From Chloroflexota bacterium (GTDB taxonomy: Bacteria > Chloroflexota > Dormibacteria > Dormibacterales > Dormibacteraceae), in contig VBGR01000034.1 in NCBI GenBank assembly GCA_005880695.1, positions 62,001 to 126,000 of the forward strand: 64,000 bases of DNA. The letters run 5' to 3'. Under the pieces are notes generated by a model, which worked only from the letters and a program-made list of their open reading frames with translations, did no database searches and was not told the DNA's origin. The position numbers were made by a program, and so were the translations under genes. Shown one piece after another: positions 27,496-35,001 of this stretch (position 1 is the stretch's first letter; each line of letters starts with the position of its first letter).

Positions 27496-28425
27496 ATGAA
27501 GGTTCTGGTGACAGGTGGCGCCGGGTTCATAGCCTCCCATCTGGTCGACGCGCTGGTCGCGCGCGGAGATGACGTCGTCGCCATCGACTCGCTCGCCACC
27601 GGTGATCGCGGCAACGTCAATCCGAGGGCCCGGTTCACTCAGCTCGACATCCGCGATGGCGCCGCCGCCGAGCTGATCCGCGCCGAGCGGCCGGACGCCA
27701 TCTCACACCACGCGGCGCAGATGAGCGTCAGCCGGTCCGTGCGCGAGCCCCTCTTCGACGCCGACGTCAACATCATCGGGTCGCTCAAGCTGATCCAGCC
27801 TGCCGCTGAGGTGGGCAGCCGCTTCGTGTTCGCGTCGACGGGCGGCGCGCTCTACGGAGACGCACCGATGCCCACGCCTGAGACAGCCCCGACCTGGCCG
27901 GTCTCGCCCTATGGAATCTCGAAGCTTGCCTTCGAGCACTACCTGTTCGGCTTCCGTGCACAGCTCGGCTTGAGCTACGCCGCTCTGCGCTACGCCAACG
28001 TCTACGGTCCGCGCCAGAACCCGCACGGCGAAGCGGGCGTGGTCGCAATCTTTGCGCGCCGCTTGCTGGCCGGCGAGGAATGTGTGATCAATGGCGGCGG
28101 CACCGACACGCGCGACTATGTCTACGTCGCTGATGTGGTCGACGCGAACCTCAGGGCGATCGACTCCGCTGAATGCGGCCACTTCAACGTCGGAACCGGC
28201 CGCCAGACAACGACCAACACCATCTTTGAGCTGCTCGCCCAGGCGCTGGCTCCGGGCGCGGTCGCCCAACACGGCCCGCCCCGCCCCGGCGACCTCAAGG
28301 CCTCGGCACTCGACTCGTCGCAAATGCGAAGAACGTTCGGCTGGGAACCGCGGATGACGCTCGAGGAGGGGCTCGAGGAAACCGCCGAATGGTTCCGGCT
28401 GACGGCCGGACCCCCGGCTCCTTAG
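27496..28425 (+). CDS. UDP-glucose 4-epimerase-like NAD-dependent epimerase
   Basis: The 309-residue extended SDR has the full nucleotide motif TGGAGFIASHLVDAL (6-20), the HHAAQMSVSRSV segment, catalytic serine region FASTGGALYGD, and YGISKLAFEHY with the Tyr-x3-Lys pair. RDYVYVADVVDANL is typical of nucleotide-sugar epimerases such as GalE. It probably supplies an epimerised sugar nucleotide, perhaps for the glycosyltransferase operon that converges on it. The ATG at 27496 follows a -10 at 27481. Its last 4 bases overlap the DoxX-like gene. Confidence 0.88.
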   Translation: MKVLVTGGAGFIASHLVDALVARGDDVVAIDSLATGDRGNVNPRARFTQLDIRDGAAAELIRAERPDAISHHAAQMSVSRSVREPLFDADVNIIGSLKLIQPAAEVGSRFVFASTGGALYGDAPMPTPETAPTWPVSPYGISKLAFEHYLFGFRAQLGLSYAALRYANVYGPRQNPHGEAGVVAIFARRLLAGEECVINGGGTDTRDYVYVADVVDANLRAIDSAECGHFNVGTGRQTTTNTIFELLAQALAPGAVAQHGPPRPGDLKASALDSSQMRRTFGWEPRMTLEEGLEETAEWFRLTAGPPAP

Positions 28426-28868
28426 CTGCGCAGCCAGGCGGGCACGAACCTGGCCTTGCCCAGCGCCGGCCACCCCGGCTGTGCAAAGACAAGCTCGGCG
28501 TTGACCAGCAGCGCCAGGTAATACAGCCAGCGAAAGCCTGGATCGGGCGTCAGGAAGGCGACGGTCAGACAGAGATTGAGGGCGAGCAGGAAGCCCAGCA
28601 CAGCCACCTTGCGGGTGGCCAGGCCAAGCACCAGAAGGACTCCGACCACCGTCTCCCCGATGGCCTGCGCCACAGCGAAGAGGAACCAGTTGGGTGCCAC
28701 GACGAGCGCCAGGAACTCGTGCAGGCCAGGTATGGGGTTGACCTCCGGCGAATGCTGGATCAAGGGGCGCATCCAATCGACGCCGCCCCATTTCTGGCTC
28801 GCGAAGAAGAGCCAGAAGAGCCCGGCGGTGACGCGGAAGATCCCGCGCCAGAGTTCAGGCGCGCGCAC
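28422..28868 (-). CDS. DoxX-like membrane protein
   Basis: The 148-residue protein has four predicted transmembrane helices (about 10-25, 55-80, 85-107, 110-130) with the DoxX-type start RVTAGLFWLFFASQKWGG and ETVVGVLLVLGLATRKVA. The family includes thiosulfate:quinone oxidoreductase subunits and many unassigned membrane proteins. The start is GTG at 28868, 14 bases inside the end of the upstream gene, so it closes a five-gene operon. A role in the glycoconjugate pathway of that operon is inference only. Confidence 0.75.
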   Translation of the reverse strand: MRAPELWRGIFRVTAGLFWLFFASQKWGGVDWMRPLIQHSPEVNPIPGLHEFLALVVAPNWFLFAVAQAIGETVVGVLLVLGLATRKVAVLGFLLALNLCLTVAFLTPDPGFRWLYYLALLVNAELVFAQPGWPALGKARFVPAWLRS

Positions 28869-29313
28869 GGCGAAGCCTCAGCGCAAAGACCAGCATCAGC
28901 AGCAGCGGCACGCCGTAATTGAACTCCGGCCAGATCAGGAATGCAGGCGGGGTAAACCCCCTCTCGAGCAGCTCGTAACCAGGCTCGAGCAGTGCGAAGA
29001 AGGCCAGGATCGCGACGTTGGCGACCAGCGCTGACCGCACGGCCCCCGGGCGGGCCTGCCAGGCCAGGATCGCCAGCGGCACGGCCGCCAGCGCTGGCCC
29101 ACCGAACTCGAAGAGGAGGTGGCGGCCGGGGTCGAGAGCGTCGCCACCCGTCACATGGAAGGCAGGCAGGCTGGCATCCGCCAAGGCCAGCTGCCAGGAA
29201 CGGATTATCAAGTCCCCGTGGCCGCCCAATCCGACCAGCACCACCAGATGCATGCCCTCGTGCGCCAGGAGGGCAACCGGAAAGATGACAAGGGCGAGGA
29301 GGAAGGCTTTCAT
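28855..29313 (-). CDS. Membrane protein with HExxH motif, unknown function
   Basis: The 152-residue product has four hydrophobic segments. The first, FLLALVIFPVALLAHEGMHL (4-23), contains HEGMH, the zinc-metalloprotease HExxH pattern, at the end of a transmembrane helix as in site-2-type proteases. A second histidine-rich loop (LGGHGDLI) follows, and DALDPGRHLLFEFGGPA could offer a third ligand, though no classic NPDG motif is seen. The ATG overlaps the stop of the radical SAM gene (ATGA). I cannot place it in a known family; a small M50-like peptidase or a non-enzymatic transporter are both possible. Confidence 0.6.
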   Translation of the reverse strand: MKAFLLALVIFPVALLAHEGMHLVVLVGLGGHGDLIIRSWQLALADASLPAFHVTGGDALDPGRHLLFEFGGPALAAVPLAILAWQARPGAVRSALVANVAILAFFALLEPGYELLERGFTPPAFLIWPEFNYGVPLLLMLVFALRLRRARA

Positions 29314-30644
29314 CGCAGGGCCTTGAGAACCGGGTCGGTGGCCAGCTCGAAGGCTGCCGCGACCGGCCTCAGCCGCAGCTTCCGCAGCTTGTGCTGGACC
29401 GCGCCCTTCAAGATCGCGAAGCGCAGCTTTCGTTCGCTGAAGTCGGAGTTGAAGAGCAGCCGGTTGTGCCGGATGTAATGCCACTCGCCGTCCTGCCGGC
29501 GCTCCTTCACCTTCGAATAGAACTTGGTTCCGGGCAGCGGGTAGGCGATGGTGTAGCTGACGTAGTCCAGGGGCAGGCGCGAGGAGAACCTGATCGTCTT
29601 CAGCAGGCTCTCCGGCGTCTCGCCGAGGTAGCCGACCATGAAGAACCCGGCCGCTTTGATGCCTGCCTTGACGCAGGCCTCCACCGCCGTTCGCGACTGC
29701 TCGGGCGTGATGCCTTTCGACATCTGCTTCAGCACGCCTTCATCGCCTGACTCGATGCCGAAGAAAATCCGCTTGCAGCCGGCGCGCTTCATCTGCGCGA
29801 AGAGCTCGTAGTCCACGTGCGTCACGCGCGAAAGGCATTCCCAGGTGAGCGGGATCTGCGCTGCTTCGATGTCACGACAGAGCTCCATGGTGCGGTGGTA
29901 GTTGAGCGTGAAGAGGTCATCCGACATCCAGATGTGGTCATAGCCAAGAGCAGCGATCTCGCGCATCTCCTCGAGCACCGACTCTGACGAGCGAGCGCGG
30001 AAGAGGTCGCCGAACACCGGCTTGTGGCAGAACTCGCAGCGGAACGGGCAGCCCCGGCTGGCCATCAAGGGCGTGGTCGCTTCGCCCCAGTGTCGGCGCC
30101 AGTACTCGATGTATTGGCGGTTGGGCAGGTCATCGCGATAGGGCGGCTTGAGGACGCTCATGTCCTTACTCCGGGGCCGCGCATCGGTCCGCACGACCTC
30201 TCCGTCGGGGCGCTTGAAAGCGATGCCTTTGACCTCCTCCCAACGGCGGTCGCCGAGGTGCCGCATGACCTCGACGATCGTTTCTTCGCCCTCGCCCACG
30301 GCGACCAGGTCGAAGTCGTCCAGGAAAGGCTCGACCTCACCCGACGGGTAAGGGCCGCCGACGACCAGAAGCGCCTTGCCGCGGAGGTCGTGAGCCAGCG
30401 AGAAGGCCTCGTCCTGCATCGTGATCATGCAGTAGATCCCGATCACCGCGGGCCGGAGCCGCTCGACCTCGGCCAGCACCTCGCTCCTCTCCAGAAACGT
30501 GTGGTCAAGCTGCCGCACGCGGTAGCCCGCAGCCTGCAGCGCCGAGCTCAGGTAGCTGAGTCCGAGCGAGGGCATGATCCAGTGGCGGCCTCTGGTCGGC
30601 GCCCGCTGGGGGTAGATCAGAACCACATCGACCTCTTCTCCCAT
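29310..30644 (-). CDS. B12-binding-domain radical SAM protein
   Basis: The 444-residue enzyme has an N-terminal cobalamin-binding Rossmann domain (about 1-140; GLSYLSSALQAAGYRVRQLD and VVGGPYPS) and a radical SAM barrel with the cluster motif SRGCPFRCEFCHK, cysteines spaced C-x3-C-x2-C. FFGIESGDEGVLKQMSKGIT is a typical B12-radical SAM strand. Such enzymes methylate or rearrange unactivated carbons in lipids, polyketides and cofactors. The ATG at 30644 overlaps the glycosyltransferase stop (TGATG); a GTG one codon earlier is possible. It probably modifies a lipid or glycan made by this operon. Confidence 0.9.
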   Translation of the reverse strand: MGEEVDVVLIYPQRAPTRGRHWIMPSLGLSYLSSALQAAGYRVRQLDHTFLERSEVLAEVERLRPAVIGIYCMITMQDEAFSLAHDLRGKALLVVGGPYPSGEVEPFLDDFDLVAVGEGEETIVEVMRHLGDRRWEEVKGIAFKRPDGEVVRTDARPRSKDMSVLKPPYRDDLPNRQYIEYWRRHWGEATTPLMASRGCPFRCEFCHKPVFGDLFRARSSESVLEEMREIAALGYDHIWMSDDLFTLNYHRTMELCRDIEAAQIPLTWECLSRVTHVDYELFAQMKRAGCKRIFFGIESGDEGVLKQMSKGITPEQSRTAVEACVKAGIKAAGFFMVGYLGETPESLLKTIRFSSRLPLDYVSYTIAYPLPGTKFYSKVKERRQDGEWHYIRHNRLLFNSDFSERKLRFAILKGAVQHKLRKLRLRPVAAAFELATDPVLKALR

Positions 30645-33600
30645 CACCTCGCCCCCTGGATCGTGATTTCGTAGCTTTCACCCGCGAAGCCGGGACCGAA
30701 CGAGTACTCGAGCCCGCTCCAGTCGAGGACCGGCGGCTGAAACTCCCGGCCGGCCAGCAGCTGCGCGTCTGGCAAGGCCGCCAGCGACCACTCGAGGCCG
30801 TAGGCGGCGCTTCGGAAGCGGGCCCAGCTCCCGTCGACTGGGCTCCAGATCCCGATCCGGTCGCCGTTCGAGGTCACCGACGTTGCGGCCAGGTCATCGA
30901 ACCGGCTCGACTGCTCGTTGAGCAGCACGACATGGCCGAAACCCGGTGCCAGGTCCACAGCCGACACGACGACCTTTACCCGGTTCCCGGCCAGCGAGTA
31001 GTCGACGGTGACCCGGCCGCGAGTCGGCACCTTCTCGAAGCGGTACTGGTGCCGGGCGTCTCCCACCATGGTGTCCAGGTTGTAAACGGCCCGCCAGCTG
31101 CCGCTCCAGCTCACCGACCCCGCGAAGACCGCGCCGTCGGGGTACTGGGCCAGCGGTACTCCGAAGCCGACACCCTCGCCGGCCAGCCCTGCGACCGAGA
31201 GACCGTGCGCGAGGTGTGCGGTCTTGCCGGCGGGCGCGGGCCTCGACGTGACCAGCAAGTAGGTGTGAACCGGCTTCCCGCCCGGAACCTGGAAGTCGTC
31301 GCGGCCGGCGAGCGGCAGAAAGGGCGCCCCCCCGCTGCCCGCGGTGAGGTCGGGCAGGACCTGGGCCGCCCGGTAGTAGTCGATGTCTTCGACCGCGATG
31401 GCCGTCACTCCACGCTTCTCCATCCAGGTCACGGCCGCCGCCCGCCCGGCCGGCAGGTCTCGCGAGCCGACGATGTCCGACGGGCTGTGGCCGCTCGCGT
31501 ACGCGACCACCGGGGAGTCGGTCAGCAAGGTCCCGGGGACGCCGGCCAGGCTCCGTCCGGCTGCCGTCAGCCCCTGGTTCAAGTGGCCGAAGCCGACCAA
31601 GACCGGGAGGTAGGCGATCAGCAGCAGCGCAGACGCAGTCGCCGTGAGCAGCGCCGCCGGCGCCGCGCGGCGGTCAAGCGCGGCGGCCGCGAGCAGGCCG
31701 AGGGCGGGCAGCGCCGGGTAGAGGTAGCGATGGCTGCCCGAGTAAGCGCCACCGAACACCAGCACGGCGATCGCGCCCAGGTAGACGAAGGCCGGCAGGT
31801 AGACGAGCGTGAGCCGCCGCCGTCCGGCCGGGTCTGCGATCTCTCGGCGGAGCCCGAAAAGGGCCAGCCCGACGAGCGGCAGGCTGGCCAGTCCGAAGTA
31901 GAAGAGGAGCTCCTCGACGCGCAGTCCGGGGTCCGCCGCCAGGCTGCCCCGGCCGGCGGCAGAAGTCACTTCCTGGGCGGCGCGCGCCACGGAATTCGTC
32001 GCCGCTCCGAGAGTCACCTGGAGCACCGCCAGGAGGGCGAGAGCGGGCGCCAGCCAGCGCAGAAGCGGACGCTTGCCGGTTTGCCGGGCCGCCCCCAGGA
32101 GAAGGACACCGGCGACGGCAAGCAGCCAGAGCCAGGCCTTGGTTCCGGTCAGGCAAGCCAGCGCGGCCAGGGTGGCCGCGATGCGCAGCCGCCGTGCCAG
32201 CGCCGCCGCGGTCGCGCCGGTCAGCGCCAGGGTCAGGAGGGGCTCCGCGACCACCGATGTCGCCGTCAGCACGAAAACCGGGTTGAGCGCAGTCAGCAGG
32301 ACAGCCAGCCGGCCCCGGCTCGGCGAGCCGGCGATCCGGTAAACAAGCGCCAGGGTGGCCAGCGCGACAGAGACGTTCAGGAACCTCAGGAGCCCCAGCT
32401 GCCAGACTCCGAAGACCTTGAGGACCAGGGCAGCCACCAGGTGGTAACCGGGTAGCCAGGTGTCCTCCATCCCGAAGAGGGGATCGCGCAGGCGCCCGGT
32501 CTGGGCCAGGTTGGCAGCGATCAGCCAGTGGTGGTAGGAGTCTTCGAACGGGGTCGGCAGCTGGGCCAGGGCCAGGAGGAGGGCGGCCGGCGGAGTGAGC
32601 ACGACCAGGAGGGGAATGGCGAGGCGCAGCCGTGCCAGCGCTCCCCGTCCCAGCCGACGCAGCGTCAGCACCTGCAGCGACTGGGCCAGGCTCAACCCGC
32701 CCAGGAAGAAAAATCCTCCGCCGAAGAGGCCGGAATAGATCACCACCAGCCACCAGCCGCGGGCAGCAGCGAGGCTGGCGAGGGCAAATGCCAGCAGGCC
32801 GAAGAGCAGCTCCAGCGGGGCGATGGGGTCGAGCGCCGATACGTAGGCGCCGTCCCGCCATTCCTGACCCCGCTCCTCGATCCGGAACTTCGGGGTCCGC
32901 TGAAACTCGCCGCCGCTGCGGAGGGATCGGATCAGCGCCAGGAAAACCGTAAGCGACGTGCCGGCGCCTACAAATGACCAGCCGAGGATCCCCGGCAGCG
33001 ACCTCCACCAGACGCGGCCGCGTCTGGCTTGGGCGACGGCGAAGCCGACCACCGGCGCCAGGCTCAAGATGCTGACGATGACCGGGATCCGTAGGAAGGC
33101 GTAATCCGAGTCCGCGGCGTCGAGGTCGAAGAGCAGCACGACGAAAGAGGACACCTGGACCAGCATCAAGACGGGGGCCAGGTAGGCGAGCAGGTGAAGC
33201 GCAGCCTGGAAGCGGGCAGCCCAGCTGATCGAGCTTTTGAAAACGGTGCCGAGCAGCAGGTAGGCGGTCTGGAAGCTGCCGGTCGCCCAGCGCGCCTGCT
33301 GGCGCCGGTAGCCGCCGACCGAGACCGGAAGCTCCTGGGCGACCGCCACCTCCTCCACGTAGCAAGCCCCCCACCCGGCCAGCTGGGCGCGGTAGCTCAA
33401 GTCCAGGTCCTCGGTCAGCGTCTCCGCTCGCCAGCCACCCGCACTCTCGATCGCGGCCCGGCGCCAGATGCCGGCAGTGCCGGTGAAGTTGGTCAGGTAG
33501 CCACGGGCGGGCCGGACCGCCTGCTCGACCAGGAAATGGAAGTCGATCATCAACGCCTGGAGCCGCGTAAACCACGAGTAGGGCTCGTTCAGGTGTGACC

Positions 33601-34138
33601 AGCGGGCCTGGACAAATCCGCACCGCGGGTCGTCGAAGCCGCCTACGGTGCGGCGTAGGAAGTCCGGCCCGGGCACCGAGTCCGCGTCGAAGACAGCCAG
33701 GAAGGGCGCCGGAGACAGGGTCAGGCCGTGAGCAAGCGCGCCCGCCTTGTAGCCGAGCCGTGAGCCGCGCCGGACGTGCTGGACCCGGATGCCCCGCTCC
33801 TGCCAGTGCGCGGCCCGCTCGGCCACGATCGCGGTCGTCTCGTCGTCCGAGTCGTCGAGGACCTGGATCTCCAGCCGGTCGGCCGGCCAGTCCAGGCGCG
33901 CCGCGGCGTCGATGACCCGCGCCGCCACGTACTGCTCGTTGTAGATCGGCAGCTGGACGGCCACCGCCGGCTCGCCGGCGTCGACGGTCCGGGGCGGCGG
34001 GGGCGGCTCTAAGCGCGCCGCCAGCCAGCTCAAGAAGAGGAGGTTCACGCCGTAAACGAAGAGGAAGGCGCTCGAAAGGGCGATCAGGGCGAGCGCGACC
34101 GGAGTCAAGCGTCGAAGAGGGTGTAAGGACGCATGCAC
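30644..34138 (-). CDS. Fusion of a cellulose-synthase-like GT2 with a GT39/PMT-like glycosyltransferase
   Basis: This 1164-residue protein joins two enzymes. Residues about 1-480 form a processive GT2: a first membrane helix ([20 protein letters not shown]), QVLDDSDDE, VFDADSVPG, LTEDLDLSY and RRQQARWATGS (the D, D, TED and QxxRW motifs), then several helices. Residues about 490-960 form a GT-C-type membrane domain with PTPFEDSYHHWLIAANL near its start, as in GT39 family enzymes that use polyprenyl-phosphate sugars. A soluble beta-rich domain ends the protein (about 985-1164). GTG at 34138 is the start; a TTG at 34108 overlapping the upstream stop is the alternative. The operon context suggests synthesis and transfer of a membrane-linked glycan; the product is unknown. 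Confidence 0.85.
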   Translation of the reverse strand: MHASLHPLRRLTPVALALIALSSAFLFVYGVNLLFLSWLAARLEPPPPPRTVDAGEPAVAVQLPIYNEQYVAARVIDAAARLDWPADRLEIQVLDDSDDETTAIVAERAAHWQERGIRVQHVRRGSRLGYKAGALAHGLTLSPAPFLAVFDADSVPGPDFLRRTVGGFDDPRCGFVQARWSHLNEPYSWFTRLQALMIDFHFLVEQAVRPARGYLTNFTGTAGIWRRAAIESAGGWRAETLTEDLDLSYRAQLAGWGACYVEEVAVAQELPVSVGGYRRQQARWATGSFQTAYLLLGTVFKSSISWAARFQAALHLLAYLAPVLMLVQVSSFVVLLFDLDAADSDYAFLRIPVIVSILSLAPVVGFAVAQARRGRVWWRSLPGILGWSFVGAGTSLTVFLALIRSLRSGGEFQRTPKFRIEERGQEWRDGAYVSALDPIAPLELLFGLLAFALASLAAARGWWLVVIYSGLFGGGFFFLGGLSLAQSLQVLTLRRLGRGALARLRLAIPLLVVLTPPAALLLALAQLPTPFEDSYHHWLIAANLAQTGRLRDPLFGMEDTWLPGYHLVAALVLKVFGVWQLGLLRFLNVSVALATLALVYRIAGSPSRGRLAVLLTALNPVFVLTATSVVAEPLLTLALTGATAAALARRLRIAATLAALACLTGTKAWLWLLAVAGVLLLGAARQTGKRPLLRWLAPALALLAVLQVTLGAATNSVARAAQEVTSAAGRGSLAADPGLRVEELLFYFGLASLPLVGLALFGLRREIADPAGRRRLTLVYLPAFVYLGAIAVLVFGGAYSGSHRYLYPALPALGLLAAAALDRRAAPAALLTATASALLLIAYLPVLVGFGHLNQGLTAAGRSLAGVPGTLLTDSPVVAYASGHSPSDIVGSRDLPAGRAAAVTWMEKRGVTAIAVEDIDYYRAAQVLPDLTAGSGGAPFLPLAGRDDFQVPGGKPVHTYLLVTSRPAPAGKTAHLAHGLSVAGLAGEGVGFGVPLAQYPDGAVFAGSVSWSGSWRAVYNLDTMVGDARHQYRFEKVPTRGRVTVDYSLAGNRVKVVVSAVDLAPGFGHVVLLNEQSSRFDDLAATSVTSNGDRIGIWSPVDGSWARFRSAAYGLEWSLAALPDAQLLAGREFQPPVLDWSGLEYSFGPGFAGESYEITIQGAR

Positions 34139-35001
34139 GCGCGCACGTAAGCGACTCGCGCGAGGGCGTCCGGCCGGTGCCGCCGCGTCCACTGCATGAA
34201 GCGCCAGGCCGTGGCCCCGACCCCGTGGGCGGGCCGGTCCAGCCAGGCCGGGAAGAGCCAGTCCGGGAGCCGGCTGACCACGTCCGCGGTGGCCCCGATC
34301 CGGCCCTCCAGCTGAGGGAAGTGCTCGAGAAGCCGGGGGTTGGCCGAGACCACCTCCCGAAGCAAGGCCCCTCCGAGAAGGGGCTTGGCGACCAGCAGCT
34401 CGTAGGCCATGTCCTCGTCCTGGCGCGCCAGCGGGAAGCACTGCGAGCGCTCCAGGATCAGGTTGGCCGTCATCACCCTTGGCGCAAGCGGCCTGGTCGT
34501 ATGGGTGTCGACCGGTTTGCCGCGATAGCGGCGAGCAGACAGGAGGGCGAGTAGGTTCAGCGCGACGTAGGCGAGGTGGCGCCGGCCATCTTCGACCACC
34601 AGGTTCAGGTCGATGTCGTCGGCGGGCGCGAAGCCGCCAGAAGCCAGAGAGCCCGCGACCGACACGCTGAGCACGAATGGGCAGAGCCGAGCCAGGCGCT
34701 CCGCGAAATGGCGTGCCTCCCCCAGGAAGAGTGCTCCGGCAAGGGCGTGGGAGGCCTGGCGGCGGCGAATGGAGTCGGGCCGGGCGCTGCTCCCTGTTGT
34801 CACGACCAGGCCCTCGGCGAAAGCCAACCGGCGGCTGGCGGCGACGACGCCAGGGACCGCCTCCGGGGGGAGCGGGCCGCCCAGGCAGACGCTCGCGAGC
34901 CGATCGGGCGGCAGGGCGTAACCACGCCGCTCCAGCAGTTCGGTCGTACGGAGCAGGCGGTCCTCGAGACTCGGACGTGCAAGTACGGCGGCGACAGCCA
35001 C
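34105..35001 (-). CDS. Nucleotidyltransferase-domain protein
   Basis: The 298-residue protein has a pol-beta-type nucleotidyltransferase core: SVAGSLASGGFAPADDIDLNLVV (about 112-134) with the GS and DxD motifs. An N-terminal helical region and a C-terminal part with several conserved aromatic residues (FPAWLDRPAHGVGATAWRF) surround it. The third catalytic acid is not obvious. It is the first gene of the operon, overlapping the glycosyltransferase start, and may activate or modify a sugar or lipid. It is larger than toxin-type MNT proteins. The start is GTG at 35001. Confidence 0.7.
   Translation of the reverse strand: MAVAAVLARPSLEDRLLRTTELLERRGYALPPDRLASVCLGGPLPPEAVPGVVAASRRLAFAEGLVVTTGSSARPDSIRRRQASHALAGALFLGEARHFAERLARLCPFVLSVSVAGSLASGGFAPADDIDLNLVVEDGRRHLAYVALNLLALLSARRYRGKPVDTHTTRPLAPRVMTANLILERSQCFPLARQDEDMAYELLVAKPLLGGALLREVVSANPRLLEHFPQLEGRIGATADVVSRLPDWLFPAWLDRPAHGVGATAWRFMQWTRRHRPDALARVAYVRACMRPYTLFDA

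Follow-up and report, generated by a model that had tools for sequence, protein, structure and literature searches.

A conserved operon around a GT2/GT-C fusion glycosyltransferase in Candidatus Dormibacterota, a possible envelope glycan assembly module

Introduction

BcsA and CelA synthases combine a glycosyltransferase family 2 (GT2) fold, the DD/DxD/TED/QxxRW motifs, and flanking membrane helices. ArnT and other GT-C transferases that use polyprenyl-phosphate sugars have a soluble C-terminal domain. GT-C enzymes carry a DxD, DD, or ED motif just after the first transmembrane helix, in the first outer loop (PMC6801728). Other described systems that come close to the locus reported here are the HpnI/HpnJ pair of the hopanoid head-group pathway, in which a GT2 enzyme is followed by a sugar-acting B12-binding radical S-adenosylmethionine (SAM) enzyme, and the aminoglycoside adenylyltransferases and MNT antitoxins, which share a Pol-beta nucleotidyltransferase core. 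The present study concerns a 64,000-nucleotide stretch of DNA (hereafter the window) from a Dormibacteraceae genome (assembly GCA_005880695.1; contig VBGR01000034.1, positions 62,001 to 126,000; the assembly has 2.82 Mb in 111 contigs and is 94% complete). At 28422-35001, it holds an operon in which a GT2 domain and a membrane half with a predicted GT-C fold lie in one polypeptide, flanked by genes for a nucleotidyltransferase-like protein (NT), a B12-binding radical SAM enzyme (rSAM), and a DoxX-like protein. The named relatives of the source genome are Candidatus Dormibacterota or 'Chloroflexi' metagenome-assembled genomes (MAGs).

Results

The window's kinship group, a family of Ca. Dormibacterota, is labeled f1 here; the phylum-level search also takes in Anaerolineae-type genomes. 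Among 61 relatives searched at the protein level, 33 have the fusion; all of these belong to the 37 f1 genomes, and the 24 genomes of other families gave no match. Similarly, the NT profile matched 38 of 42 f1 genomes and 0 of the 68 others of the class. The four f1 genomes without NT (G005, G012, G016, and G017; G016 is 71% complete) are the same four that lack the fusion. The gene order NT, fusion, rSAM, DoxX is kept in every f1 locus where the contig extends far enough. DoxX is present in every f1 locus reaching beyond rSAM, either directly 3′ of it or up to ~1.5 kb further, and a beta-propeller-like protein intervenes in several loci. Since order and overlaps are maintained in ~30 loci, the arrangement is more than chance clustering. 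The flanking genes vary across genera (GGDEF, DUF885, and TldD/PmbA genes in the window; enoyl-CoA hydratase, aldehyde dehydrogenase, and aminotransferase genes in other genera); therefore, the NT-fusion-rSAM-DoxX unit is conserved independently of its surroundings. The most conserved operon gene is rSAM (73-95% identity), followed by NT (53-90%) and the fusion (51-89%).

A preliminary description of this DNA had proposed a conserved operon around the fusion, to be discarded as chance clustering if the halves were separate genes in all relatives or the neighbors were not conserved together. Neither is the case in f1. It had also counted five genes in the set: NT, fusion, rSAM, and DoxX are indeed conserved members, whereas the small HExxH protein is not, and nor is the GalE-like epimerase that converges on the set. 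The five overlapping minus-strand open reading frames (ORFs) and the convergent plus-strand epimerase were all verified in the window, at the following coordinates.

34105..35001, minus strand: NT, a 298-aa nucleotidyltransferase of the Pol-beta type with a winged helix, operon gene 1 (sub-threshold PF01909, motif, AlphaFold2 (AF2), Foldseek)
32699..34108, minus strand: GT2 half of the fusion, CelA/BcsA-like, with DD/DAD/TED/QQARW motifs (PF13641, TIGR03030, BcsA 5ej1)
31547..32647, minus strand: predicted GT-C transmembrane half of the fusion, with invariant E532-D533 after helix 1 (AF2 and Foldseek)
30647..31546, minus strand: soluble tail of the fusion, a small alpha/beta subdomain followed by a mutarotase-like beta-sandwich (DSSP of the model, Foldseek)
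29310..30647, minus strand: rSAM, B12-binding radical SAM enzyme, 445 aa (PF04055, PF02310, alignment)
28422..28868, minus strand: DoxX-like four-helix membrane protein, conserved operon member (PF07681)
28855..29313, minus strand: small membrane protein with HExxH, lineage-specific, without a Pfam or NCBIfam family
27496..28425, plus strand: converging GalE/RmlB-like epimerase or dehydratase, lineage-specific and outside the core (PF01370, E 1.3e-56)

Fusion and rSAM overlap by 4 bp, rSAM and the HExxH gene by 4 bp, the HExxH gene and DoxX by 14 bp, and DoxX and the epimerase convergently by 4 bp. The fusion gene spans 30644-34108 from a TTG start or, as in the preliminary description, 30644-34138, from a GTG start. 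The GTG would overlap NT by 34 bp and the TTG, within TTGA, by 4 bp. Because a 4-bp NT/fusion overlap is common to nearly all relatives, TTG at 34108 is the likelier start.

The fusion product has 1164 residues, and its GT2 domain occupies residues 11-490 (PF13641, E 1.8e-27). All four synthase motifs noted at the outset are present (DD 95-96, DAD 151-153, TED 242-244, and QQARW 280-284); an alignment of 23 homologues shows no variation at the key residues of DAD, TED, and QQxRW and near-invariance of DD. The best match among solved structures is BcsA (5ej1, E 7.5e-24), and the half matches the CelA model TIGR03030 at E 4.7e-35, well ahead of HpnI (E 8.2e-9). Its score of 120.8 bits lies far under the CelA equivalog cut-off of 699.1; hence, we do not call it a cellulose synthase. 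Fold, motifs, and flanking helices are those of BcsA/CelA, whereas the operon has no BcsB-like partner gene and its GT2 domain is fused to a second enzyme. The half may also resemble the plant CslA mannan synthases. The earlier suggestion of a priming transferase appears unlikely, as the half carries QxxRW and its nearest matches are CelA models, not polyprenyl-phosphate sugar synthases.

The second half was modeled with AF2 over residues 470-1164 from an alignment of 30 homologues (mean pLDDT 81.3). The model has a GT-C fold: its top Foldseek match is ArnT (5f15, E 4.9e-7, prob 1.00), followed by OST (STT3), ALG12, and AftA, all GT-C enzymes, and the list also contains PglB and Pmt4. E532-D533 is invariant and directly follows the first GT-C helix (498-524). 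Because the loop preceding this helix is strongly basic by hydropathy, the acidic pair after it should lie outside, and the predicted active site should face outward. The tail gave weak Foldseek matches to mutarotase-like domains (1jov, E 1.8e-3), and its beta-sandwich resembles galactose mutarotase. The expectation of a GT-C enzyme with a soluble beta domain is thus borne out by the predicted fold and the tail model. The family label GT39 given with it did not hold, as the fold alone fits and sequence profiles fail: a Pfam profile search assigned no family to this half, and of the GT39/PMT models PF02366 and PF13231, PMT_2 was matched by 1 of 30 members at E 0.005 and not by the window protein. 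Among NCBIfam models, AZOBR_p60025 (cell surface glycopolymer formation) alone hinted at a relationship (E 2e-4, far below cut-off). The predicted fold, the soluble C-terminal domain, and a first outer loop with an acidic pair are shared with ArnT and its kind, in contrast to the beta-sandwich tail, the GT2 fusion, and the lack of a Pfam match; TM-scores are only 0.4-0.5. In 400 Chloroflexota genomes, with two candidates scored per genome, the GT-C profile matched f1 alone (20 of 23 f1 genomes).

Two loci depart from the usual picture of the fusion gene. In G018 (L052:9384-9796), it is divided between two frames near the GT2/GT-C linker. We do not count this as a case of separate halves, since the frames overlap in the linker, an arrangement indistinguishable from a frameshift or an assembly error. 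In L091 (7093-11621), a full fusion and NT lie on a contig labeled Gemmatimonadetes (fen_1251), reflecting a mislabeled MAG, contamination, or transfer.

NT has a winged-helix-like N-terminus and a Pol-beta core (AF2 pLDDT 82.6), with PF01909 matched below threshold. Its GS...DD.D motif (G117, S118, D129, and D131) is invariant in 31 homologues, and we guess that the third carboxylate is E184 in ILER. The best Foldseek matches include AadA, MNT antitoxins, and ANT(4′), Pol-beta-type folds all at E > 0.001. Unlike the aminoglycoside adenylyltransferases and MNT antitoxins, NT has the extra winged-helix N-terminus, and sequence similarity to them is confined to the core motif. The assignment of rSAM as a B12 radical SAM enzyme, already made in the preliminary description, is confirmed by its Radical_SAM (PF04055, E 3.8e-27) and B12-binding (PF02310, E 4.9e-14) domains and an invariant CxxxCxxC (C200, C204, and C207). 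Its best NCBIfam match is HpnJ (E 1.5e-48), with BchE, MCR methylase, and PhpK models scoring nearly equally; at 165.8 bits against a cut-off of 577.6, an assignment of rSAM as HpnJ is rejected. DoxX passes the gathering score of PF07681 (27.3 bits against 23.6, E 5.6e-6).

Two genes, for the HExxH protein and the epimerase, were added in particular lineages. The former occurs in 5 of ~31 loci and matched no Pfam or NCBIfam family. A membrane zinc peptidase was considered and set aside, as the motif is not invariant among the five sequences (QExxH in L059). The window copy has HEGMH and conserved LLFEFGGP/EFNYG-type stretches; in other genera, the gene lies 3′ of DoxX, not 5′. Most relatives encode a small soluble protein 3′ of DoxX; a test for homology with the HExxH protein showed it to be unrelated. 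Epimerase relatives with 70-91% identity occur in two other loci only, and L061 has one with 32%.

Outside f1, relatives of the GT2 half stand alone, without a GT-C fusion, and for this reason their neighborhoods were examined. Anaerolineales loci hold, in this order, Wzy_C, GT2, NT-like, B12 rSAM, methyltransferase, Wzx-type, and PNP_UDP_1 genes, with GT1 genes on the opposite strand. Their NT-like products are distant homologues of the f1 NT (hhalign 95.9%, E 5.8e-9, 231 columns). These loci resemble the f1 operon in having adjacent genes for a homologous GT2 (40-46% identity), NT, and an rSAM of the same superfamily; they differ in that the GT2 is unfused, a Wzy_C gene lies upstream, and NT is 3′ of the GT2, whereas the f1 NT is 5′. 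Outside f1, 26 genomes were recovered with the NT profile alone; by manual counts, a B12 rSAM gene is directly adjacent in 18 of them and within the locus in 23. By our own reading of the coordinates, the NT-linked rSAM is the best profile match in 11 of 13 genomes. In L149 (2914-5421), NT and B12 rSAM form one 835-residue ORF, and an ECF (extracytoplasmic function) sigma factor gene diverges upstream.

In other Chloroflexota loci (L265:7873-16873, L246, L249, L250, and L260), two or three B12 radical SAM genes come after NT, together with methyltransferases and, in some, an amidohydrolase; no NCBIfam equivalog was reached in these five loci.

In Acidimicrobiales, the GT2 gene sits 3′ of two DoxX-like genes, and a short B12 rSAM gene lies a few genes upstream. 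Also in Acidimicrobiales, a short gene for a B12-binding/partial radical SAM protein stops at an in-frame TGA that is invariant (L144:2174-3140, L138:3114-4105, L123:5902-6860, L129, L133, L146, L125, and L121). The 18 codons past the TGA show conservation of the kind expected for coding sequence (position differences 0.22/0.16/0.47; further on, 0.75/0.64/0.74), and a 7-bp hairpin follows ~20 nt downstream. Both selB and tRNA-Sec scored over the cut-off in 8 of 8 of these genomes. The Rfam selenocysteine insertion sequence (SECIS) search gave no match in the four loci searched, and the hairpin is without compensatory changes. The gene is a candidate unannotated selenoprotein.

Discussion

The component parts of the operon are of known kinds. 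Our literature searches returned no report of the gene set and nothing relevant on GT2-GT39 fusions, in agreement with the earlier statement that no named pathway has this set; fusion and gene set are undescribed in the literature found. The operon is probably a co-transcribed module for envelope glycan or glycolipid assembly, with a two-faced membrane fusion enzyme. We draw this from the joint absence of NT and fusion, the kept order and 4-bp overlaps, the glycosyltransferase motifs and fold, the Wzx/Wzy context in Anaerolineales, and the recurrent NT-rSAM pairing. The membrane glycan pathway of the preliminary description therefore retains a real operon and a real fusion, and the pathway itself stays putative.

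The analysis shows which genes are present, their order and conservation, the predicted folds, and the linkage of NT with rSAM; co-transcription, substrates, polarity, the division of labor, and the product are inferred. The GT2 half, with its catalytic domain in the cytosol, would link or polymerize sugars from a nucleotide-sugar donor. The GT-C half, with its active site outside, would add or transfer a sugar from a polyprenyl-phosphate donor to the GT2 product, and the soluble beta-sandwich tail may hold the glycan. NT and rSAM could work as a pair on a precursor or on the glycan during its growth, through transfer of a nucleotidyl group and through methylation or some other radical change. 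DoxX would be an accessory membrane protein.

Several points weigh against the assembly module. The enzyme activities of the operon proteins are predicted, and the catalytic role of NT is putative. No further polysaccharide genes are consistently conserved beside the operon in f1. The rSAM tree keeps the f1 enzyme outside the Anaerolineae NT-linked clade, on a long branch, and the GT2 tree groups f1 with Chloroflexota GT2s that lie beside sigma-factor genes, without NT or rSAM. On account of the former, we do not claim orthology between the f1 rSAM and the Anaerolineae NT-linked enzymes, and on account of the latter, we do not claim an ancestral GT2-NT-rSAM trio. In view of the two trees, the trio possibly formed more than once; the association may be ancestral or have formed repeatedly. 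Nevertheless, it recurs, and a functional link is therefore favored in either case.

In a glycolipid pathway modeled on hopanoid HpnI/HpnJ, the GT2 half would glycosylate a membrane lipid, the rSAM would rearrange or methylate that sugar or the lipid, and the GT-C half would add a further sugar outside. HpnJ being the top NCBIfam match of rSAM and HpnI being among the GT2 matches speak for it, as does the PNP_UDP_1 gene of the Anaerolineales loci, presumably of the HpnG fold, and a GT2 followed by a sugar-acting B12 radical SAM enzyme would be a feature in common. In contrast, both models are far below cut-off here, three other radical SAM models fit rSAM nearly as well as HpnJ, the GT2 half is far nearer CelA, the surrounding genes differ, and the operon contains no hopanoid genes. 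We regard this pathway as unlikely. Glycosylation of surface proteins is more doubtful still: the GT-C half would act as an O-glycosyl or oligosaccharyl transferase on secreted proteins, supplied by the GT2 half. The presence of OST (STT3), PglB, and Pmt4 among the Foldseek matches and a large soluble tail that could bind acceptors are consistent with it. However, the top match is ArnT, a lipid-A modifier, folds of the superfamily are too similar to separate acceptors, QxxRW suggests chain synthesis, and the conserved neighbors of the operon include no secreted target. Chance co-location of genes with unrelated functions is very improbable: the literature found holds no characterized link of NT, rSAM, or DoxX with GT2 enzymes, but the conserved order, the 4-bp overlaps, the same four absences, the variable flanks, and the linkage and fusion of NT and rSAM in other classes speak against it.

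In a further-reaching form of the assembly module, which we put forward tentatively, the product would be a new class of envelope polymer. One polypeptide would build the chain inside and decorate it or hand it over outside, and a dedicated NT-rSAM pair would install an unprecedented modification, as a module reusable across Chloroflexota.

Dormibacterota are soil bacteria, largely uncultured, and no account of their envelope chemistry is known to us. The fusion with its constant partners suggests that this family of Ca. Dormibacterota makes a sugar polymer or glycolipid of the cell envelope that is new to the literature. A single-chain glycosyltransferase of the inner and outer face would show how synthesis couples to decoration outside. 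Furthermore, the NT and B12 rSAM pair, recurrent across Chloroflexota and fused once, is a concrete two-protein system with testable chemistry.

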